Assembly (NCBI GenBank): GCA_016187925.1
Contig: JACPIS010000044.1
Coordinates: 1-39,379 of the forward strand
Length of the DNA stretch: 39,379 bases
DNA from: Opitutia bacterium
Lineage (GTDB): Bacteria > Verrucomicrobiota > Verrucomicrobiia > Opitutales > Opitutaceae
Direction: 5' to 3'
Shown here: in pieces, positions 17,474 to 33,103 of the stretch
Layout of the letters: each line of letters starts with the position of its first letter
How positions within the stretch are numbered: the stretch's first letter is position 1
Position numbers and translations under genes: made by a program
Notes under the pieces: model-generated
Told to the model about the DNA's origin: nothing
What the model saw: only the letters and a program-made list of their open reading frames with translations
Databases searched by the model: none

Positions 17474-17509
17474 GGCAATAAACGTTGCCCGGAGCACTCG
17501 TATGGTTAT
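17474..17509 (+). promoter_or_regulatory. Conserved promoter/operator of metal module 1
   Basis: Inverted repeat GGCAA-TAAACG-TTGCC (17474-17489), then exactly 15 nt, then GTTAT (17505-17509), 14 nt before the first gene start. The same arrangement with the same spacing occurs at 25826-25861 before the paralogous gene; CTC-N2-AT is also shared in the spacer. It could be a repressor operator at a promoter or the two elements of an ECF sigma promoter (GGCAATAAA with CTCGTA). No match to the MerR/CueR 19-bp-spacer design was found. Pattern seen directly; function inferred. Confidence 0.65.
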
Positions 17510-17523
17510 CCATGCTCCTTAGC

Positions 17524-17892
17524 ATGAAACGCCTCGCCTGGCTTTTCCTCGCCGTCTTCTGCACCGCGCTCGCGCAGGTGCAACCGGTCGAGCCGTTGCT
17601 GCCGCAGGCGAAGGAGCCATGCTGCTGTGAGAGCGACGGCGCGTGCGGCATGCCCGAGTGTGCGCTGCCCCCTGCGTTCACCCAGTCACAAACGACCACA
17701 CTGGAACGCGCCGGCACCGAGCTGCGCCAGGTCGCCCGCCGCGGTGCAGCCCGGCTTCCGCAGGTCACACCCAAGTTTTATTCGTTCGTCACGGAGCAAG
17801 TCGTGGCCACCACGATGCTCCCCGCGTCTGCTTTCGCGACGCCCGCTGCCAGTCCGTCCCTGTTCCGGCTGCACTGCAGCTTCTTGATCTGA
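17524..17892 (+). CDS. Small exported cysteine-rich protein, copy 1 (unknown family, probable metal binding)
   Basis: 122-aa protein that I do not recognise. It begins with a signal peptide (MKRLAWLFLAVFCTALAQ). The mature N-terminus carries a cysteine cluster: C33-C34-C35, C41 and C46 (KEPCCCESDGACGMPEC). The C-terminal half contains an amphipathic stretch (LRQVARRGAARLPQVTPKF), the invariant TPKFYSFVTE and ends in HCSFLI with a further Cys. The paralog at 25874 keeps all of these features, which fixes the start at 17524 rather than in-frame codons at 17485 or 17512. It is the first gene of metal module 1. A role as periplasmic or membrane-attached copper/silver binding protein is inferred from the cysteines and context only. 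Confidence 0.8.
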   Translation: MKRLAWLFLAVFCTALAQVQPVEPLLPQAKEPCCCESDGACGMPECALPPAFTQSQTTTLERAGTELRQVARRGAARLPQVTPKFYSFVTEQVVATTMLPASAFATPAASPSLFRLHCSFLI

Positions 17893-18004
17893 GGCCGTCG
17901 GCCTGCGCACACCCGCGCGCCGGTTTCGCTCCGTCCTGTCCTCACGCGCCGCTGTGCGCCCGACAGGATTCCCAGCCCTCATTCCGCCTTCGATTCATTC
18001 CGCC
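17892..18004 (+). promoter_or_regulatory. Structured intergenic leader, module 1
   Basis: A short hairpin AGGCC-gtc-GGCCT (17892-17904) overlaps the stop codon, followed by about 100 bp containing GCGCCGCTGTGCGC and a GGATTCCC segment before the next ATG. The matching region after the paralogous gene (26245-26362) preserves the stop-codon hairpin, a GCGC-N-GCGC hairpin and a GATTCCC segment. Neither copy has a terminating T-run. A role in mRNA stability or expression ratio is inferred. Confidence 0.45.
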
Positions 18005-18346
18005 ATGAAACATCTTCTTTCCCTGTACCTCGCTCTCCTGTTTTCCGTCAGCGCACCGCTGGCGTTCGCCGCGCACGATCACTCCCACGCCGATCAGCCC
18101 GCCGCCCCCGACGCGGCCTGGCTCGCCAAGGCCAAGGTCGACTATCCGCTCAAGACCTGTGTCGTCTCTGGCGAGGAAATCGGCGGGAGCATGGGCGAGG
18201 GCATCGACTACGTCTACCATCAGAAGGGCAAGCCCGACCGGCTCGTCCGTTTCTGCTGCAAGGATTGCCGCAAGGACTTCGACCGGGAGCCCGCCCAGTA
18301 CCTCAAGCTCATCGACGAGGCCGTCGCCCGGGCGAAGAAAAACTGA
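18005..18346 (+). CDS. Exported YHS/TRASH-like heavy-metal-binding protein
   Basis: 113-aa periplasmic protein. Signal peptide MKHLLSLYLALLFSVSAPLA, then a His-rich stretch (HDHSHADQ). The core has C52 in KTCVVSGEEIGG, then FCCKDCRKDFDREPAQYL with C84, C85 and C88; this is the YHS/TRASH-type layout in which one Cys from the first strand and a C-x2-C hairpin bind metal. Proteins of this kind often accompany Cus-type efflux systems as periplasmic metal carriers. It lies between the small Cys-rich protein and the efflux lipoprotein, with 3 nt to the next gene, so it is in one operon. Copper or silver binding is inferred. Confidence 0.82.
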   Translation: MKHLLSLYLALLFSVSAPLAFAAHDHSHADQPAAPDAAWLAKAKVDYPLKTCVVSGEEIGGSMGEGIDYVYHQKGKPDRLVRFCCKDCRKDFDREPAQYLKLIDEAVARAKKN

Positions 18347-18349
18347 CCC

Positions 18350-19720
18350 ATGCACACCCGACGACATGCCTGCATCGCGGCGGCCGTCTTCACGGTTGCA
18401 GGCGCCACGTTCCTGGCCGGTTGCACCACCCCGCCGCTCGCGGCGGAAAAATCCGCCCGGGCGGATGTGCGTGCGACCGGCGCCGCCTTGCTGGCCCGGC
18501 AAGGCCGGCCGGCTTTGCCGGTGTTGGGCGCCGACTCGCCGCCCGACGAGTTCGTGCGCTATGCCGTGCTCAACCACCCCGCGGTCGCCGCTGCGTATTA
18601 CGACTGGCGCGCGGGCGTCGAGGCCATCGCGCCCACCCGGGCCCTGCCGGAACCGGCGCTCACCTTCGAAGCCGACATCGTGGACACGCTGATGACGTTC
18701 ATGCCGGGCCTGATGTTCGACTTCATGGGCGCCGGCAAGCGCGCCGCGATGGGCCGCGAGGCCACCGCCGCCGCGGATGTCACACGCCGTGGTTACATCT
18801 CCGTGGTCCTGAACACCGCCGCCGCCGCGCGGAAGGCCTGGATCGAGCTCGCGTTCATTGACGAGGCCGCCGGGTTGCGTGAGTTGTCGCTGGGGGCGCT
18901 CGAGCGGTCGCTCGCACTCGCCAATGCCGATTACACGACCGGGAAAGGCATGGGGACGCTGACCGACCAGGTCCGCTTCGCCAATGAAGCCGCCAAGGTG
19001 CGCAGCGATCTCACGACGCTCGCCGACCGCCGGACGGCCGCCCGCGCCCGCTTCAAATCCGCGCTGGGATTGGCGCCCGCCGATCCCGATCCCGCCTGGC
19101 CGAAGGCCGTGCTCGCTCCGACCGCCCTGCCCAGCGAGGACGAACTCTGGCGCCGCGCCACTGCGGCCAATGCCGAACTCGGCCGCATGCGCGCCATGGT
19201 CGAGATGGCGGTCGCCGGCGTCGAGGTGGCGCGCAGGACCGGCCGGCCTGATTTCACCCTCGGAATGATGGCCGATCTCAAAGCCGATCCACTCATGCTC
19301 CGGCCTACGGCCACCCTCAAACTGCCCATCTGGCGCGAAAAGATCGCCGCCACCATCGCCGCCGCGGAGGCCCGGCGCGACGCCAGCGTGGCGCGCGTCT
19401 CAGCCGAACAGCTCAACCTCGCCGCCGAACTCGCGCAGATGCTCTACATGGTGCGTGAGGCCGATCGCATGATCGCCTACATCGACGGCACCGCCCTGCC
19501 GAATTTCGACCGCATGATCGCGACGGCTGAGGCCGGTTATCAAGCCGGCATGGCGGGCCCCGGCATGATTCCCGAAACGCAGCTCATGGCCCTCGGCATG
19601 CGCCTGGAACGCGCCGCCGCCCTGCGTGAACGCGAGACCGCCGTCACGGAACTGCTGCTGCTGACCGCCAACGTCGCCCCCGTCGGCTCGCCTCTTCCCA
19701 TAGCCACGCCCTCCTCCTGA
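18350..19720 (+). CDS. Outer-membrane efflux lipoprotein (TolC/CusC-type)
   Basis: 456-aa TolC-superfamily outer-membrane factor that would form the outer channel for the CusBA pump. The N-terminal lipobox FLAGC predicts lipidation after about 25 residues. The two repeats of the OEP domain are visible from long Ala/Arg/Glu-rich helices (YAVLNHPAVAAAYYDWRAG; LSLGALERSLALANADYTTG; AATIAAAEARRDASVARVSA; ETAVTELLLLTANV). PEPALTFEAD and the second-repeat RPDFTLGMMADLKAD are typical of metal-efflux OMFs. It is the only outer-membrane factor in the window, yet two CusBA sets are present, so it probably serves both. It starts 3 nt after the YHS-like gene and ends 13 nt before cusB1. Confidence 0.86.
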   Translation: MHTRRHACIAAAVFTVAGATFLAGCTTPPLAAEKSARADVRATGAALLARQGRPALPVLGADSPPDEFVRYAVLNHPAVAAAYYDWRAGVEAIAPTRALPEPALTFEADIVDTLMTFMPGLMFDFMGAGKRAAMGREATAAADVTRRGYISVVLNTAAAARKAWIELAFIDEAAGLRELSLGALERSLALANADYTTGKGMGTLTDQVRFANEAAKVRSDLTTLADRRTAARARFKSALGLAPADPDPAWPKAVLAPTALPSEDELWRRATAANAELGRMRAMVEMAVAGVEVARRTGRPDFTLGMMADLKADPLMLRPTATLKLPIWREKIAATIAAAEARRDASVARVSAEQLNLAAELAQMLYMVREADRMIAYIDGTALPNFDRMIATAEAGYQAGMAGPGMIPETQLMALGMRLERAAALRERETAVTELLLLTANVAPVGSPLPIATPSS

Positions 19721-19733
19721 ATTTTTTCGTCCC

Positions 19734-21779
19734 ATGAACTCCTCCCTGCGTTTCCTCGCCCTCGCTTTCGTCGCTCTGATTTTTGCCCTCGGTCTCGCCG
19801 CCGCCGAGCAGCTCTACACCTGCGGCATGCACCCGCAGATACTCAAGAAGGAACCGGGCAACTGCCCGATCTGCGGCATGGCCCTCACGCCGGTTCGCAA
19901 CAACAGCGTCACTCCGTCCGCGGCGGGTGAGCGCAAGATCCGGTACTACAAATCCTCCATGAATCCCGGCGAAGTCAGCGACCAGCCTGGCAAGGACTCG
20001 ATGGGCATGGACCTGGTCCCGGTCTACGAAGGCGGTGACACCTCCGCGCAGACCATCCGAATCGACGCCGCCACGGTCCAGCGCATGAACCTCAAGACCA
20101 GTCTCGTCACCCGCGGGCCCGTGCTCCGCGAGCTCCGCACCGTCGGCTCCGTCTCCTACAACGAGGCGGGCCTCCGTGACATCACGCTGAAATACGAGGG
20201 CTGGATCGAGAAGCTTTTCGTCAACACCACCTGGACCGCGGTGAAGGCCGGCGATCCGCTGTTCGAAATCTACTCGCCTGATCTCTATAATGCCGGACTC
20301 AACTACCTCGTCGCCCTCCGCACCGAGGGCGCGTCCGGCGGGCCGCTCACCCGCGCCTCACTCGCCCGGCTGCAGCTTTTCGACCTGCCGGCCGATTACC
20401 TCGCGGAACTCGCCCGCGCAGGCGAGGCGCCCCGCACCTATGTTTATCGCGCCCCGGCGGACGGCATGGTCATCGAAAAGATGGCCGTCGCCGGCCAGAT
20501 GATGAAGCCCGGCGAACGCATCTACCGCCTGGCGGATCTTTCGTCCGTCTGGGTGCTCGCGCAAATCTACGAGCAAGACCTGGCCTTTGTCCGCGCCGGA
20601 CAGGACGCCACCGTCCGCGTGACCTACGGCCCCGAGCGGCTGCTCGAGGGTCGCGTCGAGACGCTCCTGCCGCAGGTCGAGGAGCAGACGCGCACCGCCA
20701 CCGCGCGCATCGTGCTGCCGAATCCCGACGCCAGCCTGCGGCCCGGCATGTTCGTCGACGTGCGGTTCGTGGCCAAGCTGGCGGACGACGCCGTGCTCGT
20801 GCCCGACCTGGCCGTGCTGCGCAGCGGCGAGCACAACACGGTGTTCATCGCCCGCGACAACGGCACGTTCGAGCCGCGCGAGGTCAGGCTCGGTGTCCGC
20901 TCGCAGGGCAATTTCTACGAGGTGCTCTCCGGTCTCGCCGCCGGCGAGCGGGTGGTCGTCTCGGGCCAGTTCATGCTCGATTCCGAGAGCCAGTTGCGCG
21001 ACGCGATTCAAAAGATGCTCAACGCCGCCGGTCAGACTCCGGCCAGCCGGGCGACACCCCCGCCTGCTCGGCAAAGGGAAGAGGACGGGCCAGAGCCGCA
21101 CCCGACCGCCGACGCCGCCGCCACGATGGTCGGCATGGATGACGCCTCCGCACTGCCGGAGTCCGCGATGATTCGGCTGCGGGAACTGGCCGAAACCACC
21201 ATCGACGGAGCCACCGCGCTGGCGGCGGACGACTTTGCCCAATATCAGAAAGTTCTTCCGACCATGCGGCAGGCGCTGGCGAACTATCTCGGCAGCTACG
21301 AGCACGCCACCCATGGCCCGCTCGGGAAATTCAAGGACGCCCTGCCCGACCGCCCCGACCTCAAGGCGGCGCGGCGCGACTTCGCCTATTTCAGCACCGC
21401 AATCGCCGACCTCGCCCGGGAAAACCACCTTCACCACACGGGAGGCTTGCACATCTTCCAATGCCCCATGGCGCCCGGCATCGGCACCGGCCGGTGGCTG
21501 CAGCGCTCCGGTGAAATAAAAAATCCCTTCTACGGCGCCGCCATGCCCGGGTGTGGCGATGAGCTCGATGCTGCGGGATCGGCCGGCTCCATTCCCGGCG
21601 GAATGGCGACACTGCCGCCCGGCCATCCCTCCATCACCGGCTTGTCCATCGCAACCTACCTGCGCTCCCTGCCCGGCTCCAAGGCCACGGGCGCCGCAGC
21701 CGGCGGCACCTGCGGCAGTTGCGGCATGAGCGAGGCCGCCATGGCGGCGGGCGAGCCGTGCGCCACCGGCACCCCGTAA
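19734..21779 (+). CDS. cusB: CusB-type periplasmic adaptor with metal-binding domains at both ends
   Basis: 681-aa membrane-fusion protein of an HME-RND copper/silver pump. Order: signal peptide (1-24); heavy-metal-binding domain YTCGMHPQILKKEPGNCPIC with C30, C44 and C47; a second Met-rich, Cys-free domain (KSSMNPGEVSDQPGKDSMGM) like that of CusB; then the barrel-sandwich, hairpin and beta-barrel adaptor core (GWIEKLFVNTTWTAVKAGD; GMVIEKMAVAGQMMKPGERI; VLPNPDASLRPGMFVDV). After a low-complexity linker follows a DUF3347-type domain (ADDFAQYQKVLPTMRQALAN to QCPMAPGIGTGRWLQRSGEI and MPGCGDEL). A final tail holds CGSCGM and one more Cys. Standard CusB is about 400 aa, so the C-terminal 250 residues are extra metal-binding modules. 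It is followed by the broken cusA1. Confidence 0.9.
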   Translation: MNSSLRFLALAFVALIFALGLAAAEQLYTCGMHPQILKKEPGNCPICGMALTPVRNNSVTPSAAGERKIRYYKSSMNPGEVSDQPGKDSMGMDLVPVYEGGDTSAQTIRIDAATVQRMNLKTSLVTRGPVLRELRTVGSVSYNEAGLRDITLKYEGWIEKLFVNTTWTAVKAGDPLFEIYSPDLYNAGLNYLVALRTEGASGGPLTRASLARLQLFDLPADYLAELARAGEAPRTYVYRAPADGMVIEKMAVAGQMMKPGERIYRLADLSSVWVLAQIYEQDLAFVRAGQDATVRVTYGPERLLEGRVETLLPQVEEQTRTATARIVLPNPDASLRPGMFVDVRFVAKLADDAVLVPDLAVLRSGEHNTVFIARDNGTFEPREVRLGVRSQGNFYEVLSGLAAGERVVVSGQFMLDSESQLRDAIQKMLNAAGQTPASRATPPPARQREEDGPEPHPTADAAATMVGMDDASALPESAMIRLRELAETTIDGATALAADDFAQYQKVLPTMRQALANYLGSYEHATHGPLGKFKDALPDRPDLKAARRDFAYFSTAIADLARENHLHHTGGLHIFQCPMAPGIGTGRWLQRSGEIKNPFYGAAMPGCGDELDAAGSAGSIPGGMATLPPGHPSITGLSIATYLRSLPGSKATGAAAGGTCGSCGMSEAAMAAGEPCATGTP

Positions 21780-21809: not shown

Positions 21810-24800
21810 ATGCTCACGCGCCTCATCGATTTCTCGCTGAAGAACAAGTTCCTCGTCCTCGCCGCGACCGCGGCGCTGGTGCTGGGCGGCGTCTATGCGC
21901 TGAAGAAAATCCCGCTCGACGCGATCCCCGACCTGTCCGACACGCAGGTCATCGTCTACACCGAGTGGCCGGGCCAGGCGCCGCAGATCGTGCAGGACCA
22001 GGTCACCTACCCCATCACCACGAAGATGCTCTCCGTGCCCGCGGCCAAAGTCGTGCGCGGCTACTCGTTCTACGGCTTCTCCTTCGTCTATGTCATTTTT
22101 GAGGACGGCACCGATCCCTACTGGGCACGCAGCCGGGTGCTCGAATACCTGAACGGCCTCCAAGGCAGCCTGCCGGCCAATGTCGCCCCGCGCCTCGGCC
22201 CGGATGCCACCGGCGTAGGCTGGGCGTTCATGTATTCGCTCAACTCCAAGAAACACGACCTCGCCGAACTGCGCTCCATGCAGGACTGGTTCCTGCGCTA
22301 CCAGCTCTCCAGCGTCGAAGGCGTGGCCGAGGTGGCGTCGGTCGGCGGACACGTGAAGCAATACCAGATCACCGTCGATCCGCACCGCCTGCACGCCTAC
22401 AATCTCTCGATCAGCGATGTCGCCATGGCCGTGCAAAAGAGCAACGGCGAGGTCGGCGGCCGCTCGGTCGAGATGGGCGAGAAGGAATTCATCCTGCGCG
22501 TCCGCGGCTACGCGCAGAGCGTGGGGGATTTCCGGAAAATCGCCGTCGGTCGCGGCCCGGGCGGCACGCCCATCCAGCTGGGCGAGGTGGCCAACGTCCA
22601 AGTCGGCCCCGACATGCGCCGCGGCATCGCCGAGCTCAATGGCGAGGGCGAGACCGTCGGCGGCATCGTCGTGGTGCGCTACGGCGTCGACACCCGTCAG
22701 GTCATCCAAGGCGTGAAAGCGCGGCTCGACCAGGCGATGAAAAGCCTGCCGGAGGGCGTGGAATACACCATCGTCTACGACCGCACGGCCCTGATCGATC
22801 GCGCCGTCGAAACGCTCCAGGCCAAGCTCATCGAGGAGAGCATCGTGGTGGCGCTCATCTGCCTGCTGTTCCTGATGCATTTCCGCAGCGCCCTGGTGGC
22901 GATCATCATCCTGCCGGTCGCGGTGCTGGCATCGTTCATCATCATGAACACGCAGGGCCTCAGCTCGAATATCATGTCGCTCGGCGGCATCGCCATCGCC
23001 ATCGGCGCGATGGTGGACGCCGTGATCATCATGATCGAAAACGCCCACAAGCACATGGAGCAGGACGGTGGAAAGAAGCCCCACTGGGACATCATCCGCG
23101 ACGCTTCTATCGAGGTCGGCCCCACGCTCTTCTACTCCCTGCTGGTCATCACGGTGTCATTCCTGCCCGTGTTCACGTTGCAGGCGCAGGAAGGCCGGAT
23201 GTTCAAGCCGCTCGCCTTCACCAAGACCTACTCGATGGCCGCCGCCGCCCTGCTCTCGGTCACGCTCGCGCCGGTCCTCATGGGTTTCTTCATCCGGGGC
23301 AAGATTCCCGCCGAGGGGAAAAATCCGGTGAACCGCTTTCTCATCTGGCTCTATCACCCGATGATCGACCTCGTCATCCGGTTCCGCTGGGCCGTGATCA
23401 TCGGCGCGGCGGCGATCATCGCCTGGGTGTTCTTCCCCTGGAACGCCCTCGTGGTCGCGCCGCTGCCCGGGGGCGGCGTGAAAAATTTCGCCGCGAAACT
23501 CGGCCGTGTCTTCCCCTACCAGAATCTCGGCTCCGAGTTCATGCCGCCGCTTTACGAGGGCGACCTGCTCTACATGCCGACGACCTTTCCCGGCATTTCC
23601 CCCACCAAGGCGCGCGAGGTGCTCCAGCAGACCGACCAGATGATCCGCACCTTCCCCGAGGTCCATCACGTCTTCGGCAAGATGGGGCGCGCCGAATCCG
23701 CCACTGATCCCGCGCCGATGGACATGATCGAGACCACCATCATGCTCAAGCCCGAGGAGGAATGGCCGGCCGCCGACATTAAGGACCTGGAGGGCAAAGT
23801 CGTCGCCCACCGCCGCCGCACGCTTGACGAACTGGTCGCGGCCATGAACTCCGCTGTGCAGATCCCCGGCCTGACTAACGCCTGGACGATGCCGATCAAG
23901 ACCCGCATCGACATGCTCGCTACCGGCATCAAGACGCCCGTCGGCATCAAGGTCGCCGGACCCAACCTCGCCGAGCTGGAGCGCATCGCCGGCCAGATCG
24001 AAGCACTCGTCCACCGCGTGCCCGGCACCGGCAGCGTCTTCGCCGAGCGCGTCATGGGCGGCAACTACGTCGAGTTCGACATCGATCGCGACGCCATCGC
24101 CCGCTATGGCCTGACCGTCGGCGAGGTGCAGGAAGTCCTGCAGGTCGCACTTGGCGGCATGCCGCTCACCACTACCGTCGAGGGCCTCGAACGCTACGGC
24201 GTCATTCTCCGCTACGACCGCGACTACCGCGAAAACCTCGAGGCGTTGCGCGACATCGTCATTCCCGTGAAGTCCGCCGGCACTTCCTCCACGATGAGTG
24301 GCACCGCTACCGGCCAGATGGCGCAGGTGCCGCTCAGCCAGCTCGCCAAGGTCCGCGTGGTCGCCGCGCCCATGGGCGTGAAGAGCGAGGGAGCCGTGCC
24401 CAACGCCTGGATTTACGTCGACGTGCAGGGCTCGGACATCGGCGGTTATGTGCAGCGCGCCCAGCAGACCGTCAATGACGCCCTGCGCGGCTCACGCTGC
24501 TCATCATCATCTTCATCATCTACCTCAACACGAAGTCCTGGATCAAGACCGCCATCGTGCTCCTCGCCGTGCCATTCTCCCTCGTCGGCGCGTTCTGGAT
24601 GCTCCACTTCTTCGGCTACAACCTGAGCGTGGCCGTCTGGGTCGGCATCATCGCGCTCGCCGGTCTCGATGCCGAGACCGGTGTCGTCATGCTCCTTTAC
24701 CTCGACCTGGCCTATGACGACTGGAAAAAAAACGGCCGGCTCAATACCACCACCGACCTTCGCAACGCCATCTATCACGGCGCGGTGAAGCGTGTCCGCC

Positions 24801-25051
24801 CGAAGGCCATGACTGCCGCCGTCATCATCGCCGGCCTCATGCCCATCCTCTGGAGCCACGGCGCCGGGGCCGATGTGATGAAACGCATCGCCACGCCCAT
24901 GATCGGCGGCGTGGTCACTTCCACGCTGATGGAACTGCTCGTTTATCCCGCCATCTTCTACGTGTGGCGGCGTCGCGGCCTGCCGCCGCTTGAGCCGCTC
25001 CCCGGGCCCAGCGCCGGCTCTGCCGGACCACTGCCACAACCCCCTCTATGA
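21810..25051 (+). pseudogene. cusA: cusA1: HME-RND copper/silver efflux pump disrupted by an internal deletion with frameshift
   Basis: The inner-membrane proton-driven pump of module 1, broken near position 24490. Frame 1 (21810 to about 24490) encodes a normal CusA as far as GSDIGGYVQRAQQTVNDAL. The rest, starting LTLLIIIFIIYLNTKSWIKT, continues in a different frame to 25051. Compared with the intact CusA2, about 28 residues covering the end of the second periplasmic region (the SGQYE segment) and the start of the following membrane helix are missing. The frame change fits a lost length of 3n+1 nt, near 85 bp. Frame 1 alone ends at 24626 in an out-of-frame Ser/Arg tail. Otherwise the protein looks functional: the HME4-type GAMVDAVIIMIEN motif and Met residues 589, 639 and 702, which align with the Met triad of E. 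coli CusA. Real mutation or assembly error cannot be told from sequence alone. Confidence 0.85.
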
Positions 25052-25269
25052 GCGACGCCACTGAGACATGCATCGTGTGCGACAAGGTGACGACGGAAGA
25101 CCATGCCGCCGCCCATCGCTACTTCGACGGCCGCCGATTCACGCTCTGCTGCCCCATCTGTCTGCGTATCTTCGAGCAGGCGCCGGACCGTTTCGCCCGC
25201 GGCGACCGGCCTCAAACTCTGATCCAGCAATTGATCGACGAGATCAAATGGAGAGATCCGTCTTCCTAA
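25048..25269 (+). CDS. Small YHS/TRASH-like cysteine-motif protein
   Basis: 73-aa cytoplasmic protein without signal peptide. Two cysteine pairs, C8/C11 (CIVCDKV) and C34/C35/C38 (CCPICLRIFEQAPDRF), frame a strand RYFDGRRFTL, the layout of a YHS/TRASH metal-binding finger. It overlaps the end of cusA1 by an ATGA, showing that it was co-translated with the pump. A role as cytoplasmic metal chaperone or sensor for the pump is inferred; no catalytic residues are evident. Confidence 0.75.
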   Translation: MSDATETCIVCDKVTTEDHAAAHRYFDGRRFTLCCPICLRIFEQAPDRFARGDRPQTLIQQLIDEIKWRDPSS

Positions 25270-25326: not shown

Positions 25327-25701
25327 ATGAAAACTTCCCTCACCCTCCTCACGGCATTCGCCCTCGGCGTCGCCGCGCCGGTTTTCGCCGGCCCCCCGTG
25401 CAATTACTATGAGACCATCCGTCGCGAAGCCCAAGCCCGGGCCCTTCAGACTGGAACGAAGGTGCTCTACGTCTGCACTCAGTGCAAATCCGTCAGCGAG
25501 CACACCATCGAATCCGAAGCCCAGGCCATGGACCACTGCCGGGAAAACGCGACCGTCACCTGTCCTATCTGCAAGACCACGTATCGGGTGGTGCTCGTCG
25601 GTCCACCGAAGAATCCCACGCCCAAGCGCGAAATCAAATACGTCAACGACAAGGGCGAGGAATGCCTCTTTGTCGTCAAGGTCAGTGATAAAAAGGACTG
25701 A
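25327..25701 (+). CDS. Exported small protein with two CxxC motifs
   Basis: 124-aa protein of no recognised family. The ATG at 25327 begins a good signal peptide (MKTSLTLLTAFALGVAAPVF, cleavage near AGPP). The mature protein has C25, a knuckle YVCTQCKSV (C50/C53), C71 and a second knuckle TCPICKTTYRVVLVG (C79/C82), resembling a zinc-ribbon or rubredoxin-like metal site. The C-terminal part KREIKYVNDKGEECLFVVKV looks like beta strands. It is the last gene of module 1, 57 nt after the preceding gene, and is followed by a terminator. Periplasmic metal binding is inferred from the cysteines and context. Confidence 0.7.
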   Translation: MKTSLTLLTAFALGVAAPVFAGPPCNYYETIRREAQARALQTGTKVLYVCTQCKSVSEHTIESEAQAMDHCRENATVTCPICKTTYRVVLVGPPKNPTPKREIKYVNDKGEECLFVVKVSDKKD

Positions 25702-25825: not shown

Positions 25826-25861
25826 GGCAATAAAATTTGCCAGCGACGCTCTAATTGTTAT
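25825..25861 (+). promoter_or_regulatory. Conserved promoter/operator of metal module 2
   Basis: Inverted repeat TGGCAA-TAAAAT-TTGCCA (25825-25842), then GTTAT at 25857-25861, with the same 15-nt distance from the TTGCC core as in module 1 (17474-17509) and 12 nt before the gene start. The arms are one base pair longer here. Sharing of the element implies co-regulation of both modules by one factor. Confidence 0.65.
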
Positions 25862-25873
25862 TCGTCCCCCCGC

Positions 25874-26245
25874 ATGAAACGCCTCGTCTGGCTCTTCCTC
25901 GCCGTCTTCTGCACCGCGCTCGCGCAAGTGCAGCCGGTGGATTTGCCGCTGCCGAAGGCGAATTCCGAGTGTTGCTGCTGCGAAGGCGACGGGGCGTGCG
26001 GCATGCCCGAGTGCGCCCTCCCTCCCGCGGCCGCCCAGACGCAGACCCCCGCGCTGGCGCGCGCCGGCATCGTATTGCGCCAGGTCGCCCGCCGCGATGC
26101 GGCCCGGCTCCCGCAGATCACGCCCAAGTTTTATTCGTTCGTCACGGAGCGGATCGTGGCCGCCACGATGCTTCCCGCGCCCGCCTCAGTGGCGCCTGCT
26201 GCGAGTCCACCCCTGTTCCGGGTGCACTGCAGCTTCCTGATCTAA
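25874..26245 (+). CDS. Small exported cysteine-rich protein, copy 2 (unknown family, probable metal binding)
   Basis: 123-aa paralog of the protein at 17524; most residues are identical. Signal peptide MKRLVWLFLAVFCTALAQ; cysteine cluster C33-C34-C35-C36, C42 and C47 (four consecutive cysteines here against three in copy 1); conserved ITPKFYSFVTE; C-terminal HCSFLI. It heads module 2, directly behind the conserved promoter/operator. Conservation is strongest in the signal peptide, cysteine cluster, TPKFYSFVTE and C-terminus, which marks these as the functional parts. No known domain is recognised; copper/silver binding in the periplasm is inferred. Confidence 0.8.
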   Translation: MKRLVWLFLAVFCTALAQVQPVDLPLPKANSECCCCEGDGACGMPECALPPAAAQTQTPALARAGIVLRQVARRDAARLPQITPKFYSFVTERIVAATMLPAPASVAPAASPPLFRVHCSFLI

Positions 26246-26362
26246 GGCCGCCGGCCTGAATGCGCCCGCGCGTTGCCGCGCGCCGCCTCCCGCTCTTGTC
26301 CCGCCGCGCAACTGCGCGCCCGGGTAAGATTCCCCGTCCACGCCCGTCTCCGTCTGATTCCC
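26245..26362 (+). promoter_or_regulatory. Structured intergenic leader, module 2
   Basis: Homologous to 17892-18004: stop-codon hairpin AGGCC-gcc-GGCCT (26245-26257), then GCGC-aact-GCGC, then GTAAGATTCCCC (26324-26335) and CTCCGTCT (26348-26355) before the cusB2 ATG. It lacks a T-run, so transcription probably continues into cusB2. Confidence 0.45.
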
Positions 26363-28027
26363 ATGAAAACTTTCCTCCCTTTCCTGCTCCTCTCTTTCAC
26401 CCTCGGCCTGACGCTCACCGCCGCCGGACCGGCCGGCCACGACCACGCTACGGTCTACCAGTGCCCGATGCATCCGTGGATCAAGTCCGACAAACCCGGC
26501 GCCAAGTGCACCATCTGCGGCATGGAACTCGTCGCCGCTCCCGCCGGCGACTCCGGCGCCACCGCCGATCCCAATCTCGTCACGCTCACCCCGGCCAGCG
26601 CCACCGTCGTCGGCGTCCGCACCGTCGAGGCGCGCCGCGGCGCGCTGGTGCGCACGTTGCGCGTCAACGGCATCGTGGACGACGACGACACCCGCCACCG
26701 CATCCTCACCGCCCGCGTGCCGGGCCGGGTGGAAAAACTCTTCGTCAACTACGTCGGCGCCGAGGTGCGCGAGGGCGAACCGCTCGCGACCATCTACAGC
26801 CCGATGATGCTCACGGCGCAGCGCCAATACGTCGAGCGGCTCCGCGCCGGCAACACGGCGTTCACCGCCTCGGACCGTGCCGCCGCCCGCGAGCGCTTGC
26901 TCGAACTCGGCCTCACCGAGGAGGAGGTCAACATCCTCGAACATACGCTCGAGCCCGTCGCCATAGTCAACGTCCGCGCGCCCATGTCCGGCACGGTCGT
27001 GGCCCGCCATGTTTACGAAGGGCAGGAACTCAACAAGGACGAGTCCTCCGCCGAAACCCAGCTGTTTGAGATCGGTGATTTCTCCTCGATGTGGTTCATG
27101 TTCGACGCCTACGAACCCGACCTTGCGTGGCTGCGGACCGGCCTGTCGGTCGAGGTGACGGTCGCCTCGCAACCCGGCCGGATCTACACGGCCCCGATCG
27201 CCTTCATCGATCCCAACCTCGACCCGATGACCCGCACCGCCAAGGTCCGCGTCGTGCTGCCCAACCGCGACCGCGCGCTCCTGCACAAGCAGACCGGGCT
27301 CGCCCGCGTGCGGCTCGAGGTGCCGGACGTGCTCATCGTCCCGCGCAGTGCGGTGCTCCAACATGGCGCCGAACCCATCGTGTTCGTCGAGCAGACCGAC
27401 CGCGCCTACCTCGCCCGCCGCGTGCGGCCCGGCCGCGTCGGCGACCAGACCGTCGAGATCGTCGACGGACTCAAGGAAGGCGACCGCGTCGTCACCGAGG
27501 GCGGCCTCATCCTCGATGGGCAGGCTCAGCTGGCGCGCGCCGCCATCACCGGCGAGTTGCCCGAGCATAACCACGGCGCACCCGCCCCGGCTCCCGCGCC
27601 CGTCGCCGCCGTCGACCACGGTTACGAACAACTCAAGGCCCTGGCTTTCACGGCGGCCGATGCCGCCGCGCTGCTCGCGGCCGATGATTTCACCGGCTAC
27701 CAAAAGCACCTGCCGGCGTTCCGCGCCGCACTGCAAGCCTACCTCGCCAGCAGCGAGGATGCCACGCGCGGTCCGCTCGGCAAATTCAAGGACGGCCTGC
27801 CCGACCGCGCCGACCTGCGCAGCGCCCGCCGCGACTTCGAGCCGCTCAGCACCGCGCTGGCCGACCTCGCCCGCGAGCATCACCTGCACCACCGCGAAGG
27901 TTTCCATGTGTTCGAGTGTCCGATGGCGCCCGTGCTCGGCACCGGCCGCTGGCTGTCGCGCGGTGACCAGACCCGCAATCCGTTTTTCGGCTCCGCCATG
28001 CTCGAGTGCGGCGAGGAGCTAAAGTGA
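26363..28027 (+). CDS. cusB: CusB-type periplasmic adaptor of module 2
   Basis: 554-aa membrane-fusion protein. Signal peptide (1-21); His-containing GHDHATVY; heavy-metal-binding domain YQCPMHPWIKSDKPGAKC with C34, C49 and C52; adaptor core (RVPGRVEKLFVNYVGAEVRE; ARHVYEGQELNKDE; VVLPNRDRALLHKQTGLARV). A C-terminal DUF3347-type domain follows (AADDFTGYQKHLPAFRAALQ to ECPMAPVLGTGRWLSRGDQT and MLECGEELK). It differs from CusB1 by lacking the second Met-rich domain and the Cys tail. The ATG at 26363 is the first one that gives a signal peptide. It lies 7 nt upstream of cusA2, forming a coupled pair, and would deliver Cu+/Ag+ to CusA2 and dock to the outer-membrane factor. Confidence 0.9.
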   Translation: MKTFLPFLLLSFTLGLTLTAAGPAGHDHATVYQCPMHPWIKSDKPGAKCTICGMELVAAPAGDSGATADPNLVTLTPASATVVGVRTVEARRGALVRTLRVNGIVDDDDTRHRILTARVPGRVEKLFVNYVGAEVREGEPLATIYSPMMLTAQRQYVERLRAGNTAFTASDRAAARERLLELGLTEEEVNILEHTLEPVAIVNVRAPMSGTVVARHVYEGQELNKDESSAETQLFEIGDFSSMWFMFDAYEPDLAWLRTGLSVEVTVASQPGRIYTAPIAFIDPNLDPMTRTAKVRVVLPNRDRALLHKQTGLARVRLEVPDVLIVPRSAVLQHGAEPIVFVEQTDRAYLARRVRPGRVGDQTVEIVDGLKEGDRVVTEGGLILDGQAQLARAAITGELPEHNHGAPAPAPAPVAAVDHGYEQLKALAFTAADAAALLAADDFTGYQKHLPAFRAALQAYLASSEDATRGPLGKFKDGLPDRADLRSARRDFEPLSTALADLAREHHLHHREGFHVFECPMAPVLGTGRWLSRGDQTRNPFFGSAMLECGEELK

Positions 28028-28034
28028 GGCTGCC

Positions 28035-31000
28035 ATGATCAACCGCCTCATCTCCTGGTCGCTGCACAACCGCTTCCTCGTGCTCGCCGGCTTCCTCGCG
28101 CTGTGCGCGTGGGGCTTCGTGGCACTGTCGCGCGTGCCGATCGACGCCATCCCCGACTTGTCCGAAAACCAAGTCATCGTCTACGCCGACTGGCCGGGCC
28201 GCAGCCCGCAGGAGGTGGAGGACCAGATCACCTACCCGCTCAGCGGCGCGCTGCAGGGCCTCGCGGGCGTAAAGAGCGTGCGCGCCACCTCGATGTTCGG
28301 GTTCTCGTTTCTCACCGTCATCTTCGAGGACAAGATCGACCCCTACTTCGCCCGCACGCGCGTGCTCGAGCGGCTCAATTCCCTCGGCAACCTACTGCCC
28401 GAGGCCGTCGTCGCCCGGCTCGGGCCCGACGCCACCGGTCTCGGCTGGGTTTACCAGTATTATCTGAAGGATGACTCCGGTGCGCTGGATCTCGGGGCGT
28501 TGCGCACGCTGCAGGACACGTTCATCCGCTACCAACTCTCCTCCGTGCCGGGTGTGGCCGAGGTCGCCAGCGTCGGCGGTTTCGTGCGCCAGTGGCAGGT
28601 CGAGGTCTCCGCGCTCAAGCTCAAGCAATACGGCCTGATGCTCGGCGAGGTCATGGACGCCGTCGCCGCCAGCAACCGCAACGTCGGCGGCACGACCATC
28701 GAGGAGAACGGCGCCGAGTTCATCGTGCGCGGCATCGGCCTCGTGCAGAGCGTCGCCGACCTCGAGGCCGTCGCGCTCGCGCCGCGCAACGGCACGCCGC
28801 TCTACCTGCGCGACGTGGCGACGGTGCGCATCGGCGGCGAGTTCCGCCGCGGCGCGCTCGACGTCAACGGCCGCGCCGTGGTCGGCGGCATCGTGGTCAT
28901 GCGCTACGGCGAGAACGCCTACCGCGTCATCTCGGACGTGAAGGCGCGCCTGGCCGCGCTGGCTTCCGGTTTGCCAAAGGGCGTGAGCGTCGAGGCGTTC
29001 TACGACCGCAGCGACCTCATCGGCCGTGCCATCAACACGCTGAAGCACACGCTGGTCGAGGAAGTCATCCTCGTGACGCTGGCGCACATCCTGTTCCTGT
29101 TTCACTTCCGCAGCATCCTCATCGTCACGCTGCCGCTGCCGGCCTCGATCCTGATCTCGTTCATCCTGATGGACCGCTTCGGCATCCCGTCGCACATCAT
29201 GTCGCTCACCGGCATCGCCATCTCCATCGGTGTGCTGGTCGACGCCGGCATCGTCATGACGGAAAATGTCATCCGCCACTGCGAGCGCGCCCTGGAAGAA
29301 AAAGGTAGGGCGCGACCGCTGGGCGCGCCGCAAGGACTCTCGAACGACGGCGGGCCCGGCGGTCCCGCCCTACCACCCGAACTCACCGCGCGCGAAGTTT
29401 TCGACCACACGCTGGCCGCCGCCACGCAGGTCGGCCGGCCGATGTTCTTCGCGATGGCGATCATCATCCTGGCGTTCGTGCCGGTGTTCCTGCTCACCGG
29501 GCAGGAGGGCAAGCTCTTCCACCCGCTGGCCTACACCAAAAGCTTCGCGCTGCTCGGCGCCGTGCTGCTGGCGCTCACCGCCGTGCCGGTGTTCTGCACG
29601 TTCCTCGTGCGCGGACCCTTCAAGCCCGAGAGCGAGAACTGGCTGATGAAGTTCCTGCTGAAAATCTACGACCCAGTGCTCGACTGGGCGCTGGCGCACC
29701 GCAAAACCGTGCTCAGCCTCGCGGGCACGCTGCTCGTGGCGTCGTGCCTCGTCGCCTTCGGCCTGCCGCGCGCCGTCACCGCGCGCCTGCCCGAGCCGGT
29801 GGCGAAGCACCTCACGGGCTTCGGCAGCGAGTTCATGCCGACGCTCGAGGAGGGTTCGCTGCTCTTCATGCCGGTGCTGCTGCCCGCCACCTCGCTGACC
29901 GAGGTGCAGCGCATCATGGCCTGGCAGGACAAGGTCATGAGCACCGTGCCGGAGGTCGCCTCCGTCGCCGGCAAGCTCGGCCGCTCCGAGTCCGCCACCG
30001 ATCCCGCGCCGGTCGAGATGATCGAGACCACCATCATGCTCAAGCCCGTCAGCCAGTGGCGCCCCGGCCTGACCAAGCAGAAGATCATCGCCGAACTTTC
30101 CGCCAAGCTCATGAACGTCCCCGGCTACGTGCCTGGCTTCCTCCAGCCGATCGAGAACCGCATCCTGATGACGAGCACCGGCATTCGCGCACAGGTCGGC
30201 GTGAAGATCTTCGGTGACAACCTCGACGCCCTGCAGCAAAAGGCCTTCGAAGTGCAGCGTGTCATCGAGCAGGTGCAAGGCGCTACCGGCGTCGCGCCGT
30301 CGCGGGTGCAGGGCAAGCCTTACCTCGAGATCGCCGTGCGCCGCGAGGACATGGGGCGCTACGGCCTGCGCGTCGAGGACGTGTTCCGCTACGTCGAGGC
30401 CGGCCTCGGCGGCGCCACCGTCAGCACCTCGCTGAAGGGCCGCGAACGCTGGCCCATCCAGGTGCGCCTCGAACAGGCCGATCGCGAGGACCTCGACAAA
30501 CTCGGCGAGCTGCCGATCCCGACGCCCTCCGGCGCGGCGGTGCAACTGCGCCAAGTCGCCGACATCAAGCGCGTCGTCGGTCCGAACGAGATCCAGAGCG
30601 AAAACGGTCGCCTGCGCGTCTTCGTGCAGGCCAACGTCGGCGACCGCGACCTCGGCGGCTTCGTCGGCGAGATCAAGGAGCGCGTCGCCCGCGACGTGAA
30701 GCTCGATGCCGGCATGACCGTCGAATACTCCGGCCAATACGAGCACCAGCTCCGCGCGCGCCAGACACTGATCTACGTCTTCCCCGCCGTGCTGCTCATC
30801 ATCTTCGTGCTGCTCGTCATGACCTTCAAGTCGGTCGCCGAGGCCGCGCACGTCATCCTCGCGGTGCCGTTCGCCCTCACCGGCGGCGTGATGCTGCAGG
30901 CGCTGCTCGGCTACAACTTCAGCGTGGCCGTCTGGGTCGGCTACATCGCGCTCTTCGGCACCGCCATCCAGACCGGCGTCATCATGGTCATCTATCTGGA

Positions 31001-31298
31001 AGAAGCCCTGGCGAAGAAGCGCACCGAACTGAACGGCCCGCTGACGCGCCCCGCCCTGCTCGACGCCATCAAGGCCGGCGCGCGCCTGCGCCTGCGCCCG
31101 AAGGTCATGACCGTCGCCACCGCCATCGCCTCGCTGCTGCCGATCTTCTGGCTCGACCGCACCGGCGTCGAGGTCATGCGCCCGCTCGCCGCACCCGTCG
31201 TCGGCGGCATGCTGTCGAGCCTCGTGCACATCCTCGTCGTCACGCCCGTCATTTTCGCGTGGCTGCGCGAACGCGAGCTGACCAAACCCACGGCCTGA
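28035..31298 (+). CDS. cusA: CusA-type HME-RND copper/silver efflux pump (intact)
   Basis: 1087-aa inner-membrane proton/metal antiporter with the RND layout of 12 membrane helices and two large periplasmic loops. The N-terminal DAIPDLSENQVIVYADWPG is characteristic of heavy-metal RND pumps; the TM4 segment GVLVDAGIVMTEN carries the proton-relay Asp. Met612, Met662 and Met712 fall where the copper-binding Met triad of E. coli CusA is expected (50-residue steps). Residues about 424-447, in the cytosolic loop between TM4 and TM5, are encoded by an inserted palindromic repeat (29304-29374) and have no counterpart in CusA1. Since cusA1 is broken, this is probably the only working pump of the island. 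It is followed 14 nt later by the ECF sigma gene. Confidence 0.93.
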   Translation: MINRLISWSLHNRFLVLAGFLALCAWGFVALSRVPIDAIPDLSENQVIVYADWPGRSPQEVEDQITYPLSGALQGLAGVKSVRATSMFGFSFLTVIFEDKIDPYFARTRVLERLNSLGNLLPEAVVARLGPDATGLGWVYQYYLKDDSGALDLGALRTLQDTFIRYQLSSVPGVAEVASVGGFVRQWQVEVSALKLKQYGLMLGEVMDAVAASNRNVGGTTIEENGAEFIVRGIGLVQSVADLEAVALAPRNGTPLYLRDVATVRIGGEFRRGALDVNGRAVVGGIVVMRYGENAYRVISDVKARLAALASGLPKGVSVEAFYDRSDLIGRAINTLKHTLVEEVILVTLAHILFLFHFRSILIVTLPLPASILISFILMDRFGIPSHIMSLTGIAISIGVLVDAGIVMTENVIRHCERALEEKGRARPLGAPQGLSNDGGPGGPALPPELTAREVFDHTLAAATQVGRPMFFAMAIIILAFVPVFLLTGQEGKLFHPLAYTKSFALLGAVLLALTAVPVFCTFLVRGPFKPESENWLMKFLLKIYDPVLDWALAHRKTVLSLAGTLLVASCLVAFGLPRAVTARLPEPVAKHLTGFGSEFMPTLEEGSLLFMPVLLPATSLTEVQRIMAWQDKVMSTVPEVASVAGKLGRSESATDPAPVEMIETTIMLKPVSQWRPGLTKQKIIAELSAKLMNVPGYVPGFLQPIENRILMTSTGIRAQVGVKIFGDNLDALQQKAFEVQRVIEQVQGATGVAPSRVQGKPYLEIAVRREDMGRYGLRVEDVFRYVEAGLGGATVSTSLKGRERWPIQVRLEQADREDLDKLGELPIPTPSGAAVQLRQVADIKRVVGPNEIQSENGRLRVFVQANVGDRDLGGFVGEIKERVARDVKLDAGMTVEYSGQYEHQLRARQTLIYVFPAVLLIIFVLLVMTFKSVAEAAHVILAVPFALTGGVMLQALLGYNFSVAVWVGYIALFGTAIQTGVIMVIYLEEALAKKRTELNGPLTRPALLDAIKAGARLRLRPKVMTVATAIASLLPIFWLDRTGVEVMRPLAAPVVGGMLSSLVHILVVTPVIFAWLRERELTKPTA
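29304..29374 (+). repeat. REP-like palindromic element inserted in frame within cusA2
   Basis: Arms at 29304-29329 and 29349-29374 (26 nt each) are reverse complements at 23 of 26 positions, with a 19-nt loop. The outer ends read GGTAGGGCG and CGCCCTACC. The element codes for a Gly/Pro/Arg-rich peptide without stop codons (including GGPGGPALP) that interrupts an otherwise conserved loop of the RND pump. No second copy was seen in the window. It resembles mobile palindromic repeats able to enter coding sequence, such as Rickettsia palindromic elements. Confidence 0.75.
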
Positions 31299-31312: not shown

Positions 31313-31894
31313 ATGAACCGCCGTGCCGATCAGGTCGCCCAAGCGCTCAACGCGCAACGCGAGGCCTTCAAGGCGTTCCTGGTCGCGCGCGTCGGCAACG
31401 CGGCCGAGGCGGAGGACATCCTGCAGAACGGCCTGCTCAAGGCGCTGCACCACGCCGGGGAAATCGCCGACACCGACAAGACTGTGGCGTGGTTCTACCA
31501 GGTGCTGCGCCACGCCGTCATCGACCACTACCGCAGCCGCGGAGCCGTCAAGCGCCGCAACGACGCGCTCGGCGCGACGATCGAGGCGCTCGGTGAGGAC
31601 GTCGCCGCCGCCCCGCCCGGCTGGGAGGCGCAGCTTTGCGGCTGCCTCGGCAGCGTGATCGGCTCGCTCAAGCCCCGTTACGCCGAACTGCTGCGCCGCG
31701 TCGAGCTGGAGGGCGAACCGGTCAACGCCGCCGCCCGCGCGCTCGGCATCACGCCGGGCAACGCCAGCATCACCCTGCACCGCGCCCGCCAGGAGCTGCG
31801 CGACAAGCTCCGTGCCTTCTGCGGAGCCTGCGCCGACGGCGCGTGTCTGGACTGCCATTGCGCCCCCACCGCGGAAAAGCGCGGCGGCGCGTAA
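31313..31894 (+). CDS. ECF sigma factor with C-terminal cysteine-rich domain (CorE-like)
   Basis: 193-aa extracytoplasmic-function sigma factor. Sigma region 2: FLVARVGNAAEAEDILQNGL and VAWFYQVLRHAVIDHYRSRG; sigma region 4: LKPRYAELLRRVELEGEPV and ALGITPGNASITLHRARQEL. C109 and C111 (CGC) lie in the linker between them, and the tail has C170, C173, C178, C181 and C183 (CGACADGACLDCHC). The metal-sensing CorE sigma factors of Myxococcus likewise carry a C-terminal cysteine-rich domain and sense copper without an anti-sigma factor (recalled knowledge). No anti-sigma gene is adjacent. Its place inside a copper/silver efflux operon, after cusA2 and before the ATPase, supports direct metal sensing and feedback control. 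It is the best candidate to act at the promoters at 17474 and 25825. Confidence 0.88.
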   Translation: MNRRADQVAQALNAQREAFKAFLVARVGNAAEAEDILQNGLLKALHHAGEIADTDKTVAWFYQVLRHAVIDHYRSRGAVKRRNDALGATIEALGEDVAAAPPGWEAQLCGCLGSVIGSLKPRYAELLRRVELEGEPVNAAARALGITPGNASITLHRARQELRDKLRAFCGACADGACLDCHCAPTAEKRGGA

Positions 31895-31916
31895 GATTCG
31901 TTGGCCGGCTCCGTCT
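31891..31916 (+). promoter_or_regulatory. Leader motif shared with 33063-33088 (copy A)
   Basis: GTAAGATT (31891-31898), 10 nt, then CTCCGTCT (31909-31916); the TAA is the stop of the ECF gene. 33063-33088 has the same two blocks at the same distance, with 20 of 26 positions identical, also beginning at a stop codon and also just before a metal gene. 26324-26355 carries the blocks 16 nt apart. It may be a regulatory leader or remnants of gene duplication; function unknown. Confidence 0.4.
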
Positions 31917-31939: not shown

Positions 31940-32104
31940 ATGAAGGACAATCCTACCGCCAAGAACGCCGTGCCGCCCTGCGGCTGCGCTCAATGCCTGT
32001 GCCGCCGCGGCCCGCGCTGCCGCTGCCATGCCTACAACGCCCTGCTGGCCCTCGCCTTCTGGGACTTCGGCCGCTCCTTCCGCCGGTCGCGTCCGGCCAA
32101 GTGA
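31940..32104 (+). CDS. 54-aa cysteine-rich peptide (metallothionein-like candidate)
   Basis: Short protein with six cysteines and a histidine in 17 residues (CGCAQCLCRRGPRCRCH; C14, C16, C19, C21, C27, C29, H30), a density typical of small metal-binding peptides. A polar N-terminus precedes it; ALLALAFWDFGRSF is a short hydrophobic or amphipathic helix, and the basic tail ends RRSRPAK. The ATG at 31940 lies 45 nt after the sigma gene. No family recognised. It could be a cytoplasmic copper buffer, a chaperone for the downstream ATPase, or a modulator of the sigma factor; its cysteine spacing resembles the sigma tail. The frame is open and well placed, but so short a gene needs independent support. 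Confidence 0.6.
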   Translation: MKDNPTAKNAVPPCGCAQCLCRRGPRCRCHAYNALLALAFWDFGRSFRRSRPAK

Positions 32105-32652: not shown

Positions 32653-33066
32653 ATGCAATATCTCATCGGCATAGTTCTGGCGCTGGTCGTCTTCCTTTTC
32701 GCCCGGCTCGTCCGGCTCGACCGCGACCGGGCCTTCTATCCGACCGTGCTGATCGTCGTCGCCTCGTATTACGGGCTGTTCGCCATCGTGGGCGGCTCGC
32801 TGGTGACGCTGGCGCTGGAATCGATCGCCATCGTCGGTTTCATCGCCCTTTCAGTCGCCGGATTCAAATTCAGCCTCTGGCTGGTGGCTGCCGCCTTGTT
32901 CGCGCACGGCATCTACGATTTTTTCCACGGGCACCTTATCGCCAACACCGGAATGCCCGCCTGGTGGCCGGGATTCTGCATGGCCTATGACGTGACAGCC
33001 TCGGTCTGCCTGGCCTGGTTGCTCCGACCAGCCAAGACGGCCGCCACGGAAAACCAATCGCTGTAA
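32653..33066 (+). CDS. Small multipass membrane protein of unknown function
   Basis: 137-aa protein with about four hydrophobic segments ([59 protein letters not shown]). A striking conserved-looking core, [20 protein letters not shown] followed by WPGFCMAYD, places His, Asp, Asn and Cys at the membrane edge and suggests a metal or haem site or an enzyme active site. I recall similar HG-x-YD and N-x-G-x-P-x-WWP motifs in small uncharacterised bacterial membrane proteins but cannot name a function. Its TAA stop is the start of the shared leader motif upstream of the ATPase gene. Membership in the metal operon is by position. Confidence 0.72.
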
Positions 33067-33103
33067 GATTTTTTCGGATGCTCCGTCTTTGGGAAAAGCA
33101 TCC
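33063..33103 (+). promoter_or_regulatory. Leader motif (copy B) and hairpin before the copper ATPase gene
   Basis: GTAAGATT (33063-33070), 10 nt, CTCCGTCT (33081-33088), as at 31891-31916. A 7-bp stem GGATGCT/AGCATCC (33076-33082 and 33097-33103) with a 14-nt loop ends 6 nt before the ATG and could shield the translation start. Confidence 0.4.

Follow-up and report, generated by a model that had tools for sequence, protein, structure and literature searches.

Cys-rich open reading frames ahead of two Cus-type efflux modules in an Opitutia bacterium: probable metal-sensing leader ORFs of the nascent-chain type

The stretch of DNA analysed here (the window, 39,379 nucleotides) carries two Cus-type RND modules, each preceded by a cassette that consists of a shared promoter element, a gene for an exported Cys-rich protein and a GC-rich leader (Table 1). 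Both cassettes (17474-18004 and 25826-26362) start at the first base of GGCAATAAANNTTGCC and end directly 5' of the next ATG. With at most one mismatch, GGCAATAAANNTTGCC occurs twice in the 4.0 Mb genome, both times in the window (reversed-pattern control, 0 matches). The two proteins, here called Ccx1 (122 aa) and Ccx2 (123 aa), are 78% identical, are the sole two matches to the protein in their own genome, and have no match at E<=1 in Pfam or NCBIfam. The original prediction had described a duplicated cassette with a shared promoter element, one copy ahead of each Cus module, encoding a protein of no recognised family with a CCC or CCCC cluster, CGMPEC, TPKFYSFVTE and a terminal HCSFLI, and followed by a short AGGCC-loop-GGCCU hairpin at the stop codon. 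Its coordinates proved exact, and every one of these elements is present in both copies. Two further features emerged from the present analysis, namely a conserved RNA stem, larger than the short hairpin, around the stop codon and, in the leader of copy 2 only, an ECF-type promoter box.

Table 1. Features of the two ccx cassettes and their neighbouring genes (positions in the window)
Feature	Position	Strand	Basis
Promoter element of ccx1: GGCAATAAACGTTGCC overlapping a TTGC -35-like box; TTATCC -10-like box	17474..17511	+	Sequence, two-match genome search
ccx1, exported Cys-rich candidate leader ORF, copy 1, 122 aa	17524..17892	+	Family of 51 full copies
Cys cluster codons of ccx1 (CCC..CGMPEC)	17620..17661	+	Conserved family columns
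ccx1 C-terminal motif codons SLFRLHCSFLI and stop	17857..17892	+	Family conservation
Short hairpin AGGCC-GUC-GGCCU at ccx1 stop codon	17892..17904	+	
Exported YHS-like protein, next gene after ccx1	18005..18346	+	YHS match below Pfam cut-off
TolC-like outer membrane efflux protein	18350..19720	+	Pfam OEP
CusB1 periplasmic adaptor	19734..21779	+	Pfam HlyD_D23 and HMBD
CusA1 RND pump, frame broken near 3' end	21810..25051	+	TIGR00914, aligned to residue 891/938
Promoter element of ccx2: GGCAATAAAATTTGCC and TTATTC	25826..25863	+	Sequence, genome search, family pattern
ccx2, exported Cys-rich candidate leader ORF, copy 2, 123 aa	25874..26245	+	
Cys cluster codons of ccx2 (CCCC..CGMPEC)	25970..26014	+	Conserved family columns
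ccx2 codons of PLFRVHCSFLI and stop	26210..26245	+	Family conservation
5' arm of predicted stop-straddling stem, inside ccx2 coding region	26221..26230	+	Stem pairing, RNAalifold
3' arm of the stem, copy-2 GUGUGYCC form AUGCGCCC, 2 mismatches to the motif	26257..26267	+	Motif, pairing
Second predicted hairpin, overlapping 3' arm of the first stem	26264..26286	+	Folding
ECF-type promoter box GTAAGAT-N13-CCGTCT upstream of cusB2	26324..26349	+	Genome pattern search, family
CusB2 adaptor	26363..28027	+	Pfam/NCBIfam
CusA2 RND pump	28035..31298	+	TIGR00914
CorE-like ECF sigma factor	31313..31894	+	LCGCLG in linker, Cys-rich C-terminus
ECF-type box before 54-aa Cys-rich ORF	31891..31916	+	Genome pattern search
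ECF-type box before P-type ATPase	33063..33088	+	Genome pattern search

The first module runs in the order ccx1, YHS-like exported protein, TolC, CusB1, CusA1, and the second in the order ccx2, CusB2, CusA2, ECF sigma factor. The reading frame of CusA1 is broken near 24.5 kb: the ORF at 21810-24626 and the one at 24557-25051 do not share a frame, either through an assembly error or through true decay. Two genes lie between the modules: one (25048-25269) encodes a 73-aa TRASH/YHS-like protein and the other (25327-25701) an exported, Zn-ribbon-like protein that has two C-x2-C pairs and scores below the Pfam cut-off.

Relatives were collected with a profile built from 13 ccx copies and searched against 252 genomes of the same GTDB family, 53 of which gave a match at E<=0.01. 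Weak matches in three of these (G091, locus L098; G135; G591) were left out, and 50 genomes, that of the window included, were retained with 51 full copies. Also dropped were additional matches in G687 (L096, an incomplete copy that precedes another CusB2), in G616 and in G638 (L097, a chance match); loci L003-L005 are duplicates of L061, L060 and L059, their contigs being equal in length. The profile includes the C-terminus, so the collection is biased toward copies that keep it. In a sample of 384 genomes from the class, only seven weak matches (E 7e-4 to 0.008) fell outside the GTDB family, and 273 genomes from the order gave a single partial match, interrupted by stops (E 2e-4). Three loci from a collection of named genomes are labelled Opitutaceae or Opitutia. 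Relatives outside the one GTDB family were thus not convincingly found in the genomes sampled.

In the downstream DNA that was fetched, RND efflux genes (CusB, CusA or OEP) are recognisable after 49 of the 51 copies, which lends strong support to the metal link proposed in the original prediction. The prediction had named homologs lying for the most part elsewhere than at metal genes as its refutation, and the family does not show this. The two exceptions have nothing recognisable downstream but a YHS-like exported protein, over 7 kb of DNA at L090 and up to the contig end, 1.5 kb downstream, at L095. The next gene encodes CusB in 35 cases, a YHS-like exported protein in eight (all at or below weak Pfam scores) and an outer membrane efflux protein in six, and in the other two it is an unassigned ORF followed by efflux genes. 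Its ATG, by an automatic choice of start, lies 65-202 nt past the ccx stop codon.

CusB2-like proteins are more widely spread than ccx, occurring in 116 of the 252 family genomes at E<=1e-60, and many relatives have cusB2 with no ccx detected. Inspection by eye of 25 cusB2 loci without a profile match revealed a YHS-like protein in the place of ccx in 13. Genomes G207 and G144 have divergent ccx relatives that the profile missed, with ends TQCRWRL or TQCRFLI. At yet another such locus (L151 in G594), cusB2 is preceded by a Cys-containing ORF without a Pfam match that ends in GQAPPAAA. By eye, this ORF resembles the proline-type copper leaders discussed below, as if one type of leader had replaced another.

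The Ccx proteins are 115-127 aa long and conserved in a distinctly uneven way. Mean pairwise identity is 0.49 over residues 1-22 and 0.48 over the Cys region (33-51), falls to 0.20 in the spacer (52-107), and rises to 0.63 over the last 12 residues. For the 332 pairs whose identity over residues 1-107 is below 25%, identity in the last 12 residues still amounts to 62%. The family C-terminal motif can be written VPLFxAHCSFLI-stop, with F115 kept in 45, H118 in 47, C119 in 48 and L122 in 48 of the 51 copies; in the Cys region, C42 is kept in 50 and C47 in 46. The spacer, unconserved in sequence, is nearly constant in length, with 73-76 residues after C47 in 46 of the 51 copies. At the 34 loci where the next gene (CusB) has a QCPMHP-type motif, the standard deviation of the post-C47 length is 0.8 residues, compared with 7.6 for the distance from the CusB start (chosen automatically) to that motif.

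A second conserved element lies in the RNA just beyond the stop codon. The sequence GTGTGYCCG is present exactly in 30 of the 51 copies and with at most one mismatch in 41; counted from the stop codon's first base, 40 of these lie at 14-20 nt and the remaining one at 24 nt. By comparison, 5100 shuffles contained 30 exact matches and 380 with one mismatch, and 141 kb of downstream DNA contained 2 exact matches and 42 within one mismatch. In the 384 class genomes the RNA pattern was matched in three, all of the same GTDB family, and two of these matches are known ccx copies.

The GUGUGYCCG motif pairs with the codons around A-H-C of the C-terminal motif to give a stem that straddles the stop codon. 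Over the 51 copies, 423 of the 510 cells of the 10-bp stem are paired, against 412.6 +/- 3.0 with permuted partners (3 of 2000 permutations reach 423) and at most 290 with slid partners. Unguided RNAalifold predicts 7 of the 10 pairs from an alignment of 45 sequences, which omits L015 and L057 (both close to L056) as well as L077, L080, L082 and L083 (all four with a divergent element); the motif counts, hairpin stability, stem pairing and folding test include all 51. Compensating changes are exemplified by L020 and L066 (GGCCCAC with GUGGGUCC), though covariation is weak overall: in tests on the same 45-sequence alignment that ignore relatedness, 5 cells changed on both sides were matched by 90 of 500 shuffles, 4 stem pairs with two-sided change by 131, the number of paired cells by 19, and the covariation score by 6. 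Codon choice also points to the RNA, in that GCG is the Ala codon within the stem in 28 of the 34 copies with Ala there but makes up 453 of the 1141 Ala codons in the remainder of the ccx ORFs (binomial p about 4e-7, with relatedness not taken into account). The Ser codons at residue 120 are all AGY (40/40), which we do not count as proof because AGY and TCN cannot be interconverted by a single change. The peptide appears to be selected as well as the RNA, since the codons of L122 and I123, which lie outside the 10-bp stem, change synonymously while the residues are kept.

Copy 2 in the window has 3 of the 10 stem pairs broken; in copy 1, 6 of 10 are broken and the stem is largely lost. The module of copy 1 is also the one with the CusA1 frame break. 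A second hairpin starts inside the GUGUG element (mean z -1.08); it and the complete first stem are mutually exclusive. Free-energy folding predicted a switch in only 12 of the 51 copies and so does not support a uniform two-state switch. The short stop-codon hairpin was rejected as a conserved RNA unit, its stability across the family being no better than that of shuffles (mean z 0.02). Over the final 60 nt ahead of the next gene the leaders are rich in C (C 0.42, G 0.23), but C exceeds twice G in only 17 of the 51 copies; this composition is no more than suggestive of a Rho site.

How are these two sets of constraints to be explained? We consider it likely that ccx1 and ccx2 are cis-acting metal (copper)-sensing leader ORFs of the nascent-chain type, which act during their own synthesis. 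The sequence comparisons suggest that the making of Ccx, rather than the finished protein, would sense copper and control the pump genes. The main rival is a plain metal binder, that is, a periplasmic chaperone or buffer for the Cus pump that is made first and in large amounts, with the C-terminal motif serving as a ligand or docking site. The composition of Ccx would suit such a protein, with a signal peptide-like start (by pattern match, 47 of the 51 copies have A-x-[AV] around residue 15), 6-9 Cys after residue 22 in 49 copies, and the neighbouring efflux genes already described. A binder, however, would leave a spacer of near-fixed length and unconserved sequence unexplained, and AlphaFold prediction from a shallow alignment of five sequences gives no confident fold (mean pLDDT 50.8, with the signal helix alone confident). 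Moreover, a protein that acts in trans would have no need of RNA-level constraint across its stop codon. For these reasons - the spacer, the missing fold, and the constraint on the last residues and on the stop-straddling RNA - we favor a sensor and regard the binder as unlikely. The original prediction had offered a high-copy periplasmic metal binder or a sensor, and it is the second half of that proposal that the comparisons favor.

It could also be argued that the C-terminal motif serves as a tag for degradation or sorting, and that the stem works on its own as an attenuator or an element of mRNA stability, independent of any stall of the peptide. The C-terminal FLI is nonpolar, as are C-termini described as marking proteins for proteolysis (PMC9426467), and the stem and peptide constraints are partly separable. 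A tag would nevertheless leave it unexplained why the stop codon follows the Cys cluster at a near-fixed distance, and we rate this explanation as improbable, somewhat more so than the binder.

The proposed nascent-chain mechanism can be pictured as follows. Ccx would be exported while it is being made, so that when its C-terminus is at the catalytic centre of the ribosome the Cys cluster would just have arrived in the periplasm; the 73-76 residues that follow C47 would be just enough for the cluster to emerge from the ribosome and translocon by the time of termination. Binding of copper (or silver) at the cluster would delay termination at HCSFLI-stop. A ribosome paused there, its A site occupied by the stop codon, would sit over the coding arm of the stem, with its leading edge directly 5' of the GUGUG element, and would thereby free GUGUGYCC. 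With the stem open, RNA polymerase or ribosomes could continue into the efflux operon. Without metal, the ribosome would depart, the stop-straddling stem would form, and read-through would be low. The step acted upon may be Rho-type termination or translation, and both the direction of the effect and the target step are our reading of the layout. Weighing against this model are the stem pairs broken in copy 1, the weak covariation, the small number of copies in which folding predicts the switch, and the relatives with cusB2 but no detected ccx.

Several systems studied experimentally provide precedents, namely CutF (PMC9973294), CruR (PMC9426467) and stop-dependent arrest peptides (PMC10987492). 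CutF of Rhodobacter capsulatus acts in cis and, as described (PMC9973294), shares with ccx a length below 150 aa, a signal peptide, a Cys metal motif, a position upstream of copper genes that include OEP and CusB, and RNA structure in the leader. Ccx agrees with the filters used there for CutF-like proteins in its length (<150 aa), putative signal peptide and same-strand next gene within 1000 nt (PMC9973294). CutF-like proteins were, however, chosen for PP in the last 15 residues (PMC9973294), a feature found in 4 of the 51 Ccx proteins (in the window, in copy 2 and not in copy 1). In addition, the CutF stem-loop masks a Shine-Dalgarno sequence (PMC9973294), whereas none was seen by eye before the next gene across the family leaders, and masking of the ribosome binding site as in CutF is accordingly not evident. 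The main text of the CutF paper does not mention Verrucomicrobiota (PMC9973294). CopL of Xanthomonas, by its description in that paper, likewise lies upstream of copper resistance genes and does not act in trans (PMC9973294).

CruR of Bordetella pertussis, as described (PMC9426467), is like ccx the first gene of a copper operon, poorly structured, followed by a GC-rich intergenic region (100-200 nt), and conserved in the spacing between its Cys motif and its C-terminal motif. The spacing differs, being 45 residues between the motifs in CruR (PMC9426467) and about 75 from the last Cys to the stop codon in Ccx, and the downstream genes serve uptake for CruR (PMC9426467) and efflux for ccx. Membership of the DUF2946/CruR family was rejected: PF11162 has no match to Ccx1 or Ccx2 at E<=1, nor any match in their own genome, and RAPP, RGPP or RAGP is found in the last 20 residues of none of the 51 Ccx proteins. 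The exported arrest-peptide uORFs described in PMC10987492 share the layout of ccx, being small, with a localisation signal, a conserved extreme C-terminus, a spacer of more than 30 residues, and a proposed pause with the stop codon in the A site, as we propose for ccx. The published criteria for these name sec/yidC genes downstream, where ccx precedes efflux genes, and arrest-peptide uORFs have been tested experimentally (PMC10987492), while arrest at HCSFLI-stop with a Cys cluster is a prediction. Considering that, downstream genes apart, the layout of ccx matches the published arrest-peptide criteria, and that its proposed working resembles that of CutF and CruR while it fails the sequence tests for both, ccx would represent a new variety of a kind of control already known. 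Our literature search found no paper on such a leader in Opitutaceae, which does not prove that there is none.

Transcriptional signals at these loci complicate the picture. An AAT-N4-7-TTGC pattern lies upstream of ccx in 32 of the 51 copies (shuffles: mean 0.6, maximum 3). The GGCAA-N6-TTGCC dyad was rejected as a family-wide operator; by eye, only the window copies and L076 have the full dyad, and L062 and L064 come close to it. The ECF-type box GTAAGAW-N13-CCGTCT has, with at most one mismatch, three matches in the genome, all of them exact and all in the window (reversed-pattern control, 1). An ECF-type box with at most two mismatches is present in 14 of the 51 copies, starting 37-41 nt before the next ATG; in the other 37 it has at least 4 mismatches, and one shuffle per copy gave at least 3.

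The sigma factor gene at the end of the second module is probably the one whose product uses the three boxes, judging from its sequence and its co-occurrence with the box. CorE-like ECF factors are described as having CXC in the sigma2-sigma4 linker and a Cys-rich C-terminal domain (PMC8999054). Both are found here, with LCGCLG between regions 2 (20-77) and 4 (111-162) and the C-terminal sequence CGACADGACLDCHC. The type of sigma factor is not new, because an Opitutus terrae protein is already listed among ECFs with such a Cys-rich end (PMC3107203). Across the family, the ECF gene was found in 8 of the 14 genomes with the box and 6 of the 36 without it (Fisher p 0.011). Two points speak against the assignment: the -35 region of CorE itself is described with AAC (PMC3107203), which the box in the window lacks, and two single-contig genomes (G154 and G228) have the box yet give no match to this ECF at E<=1e-25.

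Perhaps, then, the modules are controlled mainly at transcription, through the promoter element and the CorE-like ECF box, with ccx as a passenger or minor cistron. The confinement of all three exact genomic boxes to the window and the regular placement of the box in 14 copies would fit such control, but most of the 37 copies without the box keep the RNA motif, and all keep ccx. In addition, G154 and G228 have the box without a match to the ECF, and conservation of the last 12 residues is not what one would expect of a passenger. We therefore find this explanation highly improbable. The ECF box of copy 2 lies 3' of the ccx element, so that the leader could control only read-through transcription, and much expression may bypass the element in the 14 copies with such a box. 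The read-through transcript of copy 2 would also carry the ECF sigma gene, which could then amplify cusBA from its own box; the copy-2 leader plausibly controls the starting supply of sigma factor.

A more specific reading, which we offer tentatively and hold to be less likely than its alternatives taken together, is that ccx represents a new class of metal-sensing arrest peptide, from nearly all members of which the proline motif is absent. A Cys sensor that reaches the periplasm on a fixed ruler would stall translation at HC(S)xL(I)-stop and flip the stem; copy 2 would gate, as a two-stage switch, an operon whose final gene encodes its own copper-responsive CorE-like sigma factor; and the nearly invariant His-Cys, inside the exit tunnel at the stall, might itself contribute to metal sensing. 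The worked examples of nascent-chain metal control that we found are few (CruR and CutF), both dependent on a proline motif as described in their papers. If the sensing role of ccx is correct, this family from one lineage of Verrucomicrobiota, whose arrest-like end differs, whose metal cluster sits on a near-fixed ruler and whose RNA stem crosses the stop codon, would show copper leader ORFs to exist in different sequence families. Such a role would also explain small genes of no assigned function at the head of efflux operons, and could yield a compact copper sensor part.

Additional small genes accompany the sigma factor. A 54-aa Cys-rich ORF (PCGCAQCLCRRGPRCRCH; 31940-32104), 3' of the ECF gene and with its own ECF-type box, has no Pfam match and has relatives at several other loci; it is possibly a metallothionein-like protein or a sigma partner. 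Between the ECF gene and the P-type ATPase also lie a phospholipid/isoprenylcysteine methyltransferase-like gene (32175-32636) and a small gene without assignment (32653-33066), and the same pair is found between the ECF and P-type ATPase genes in at least one relative (L004/L060).
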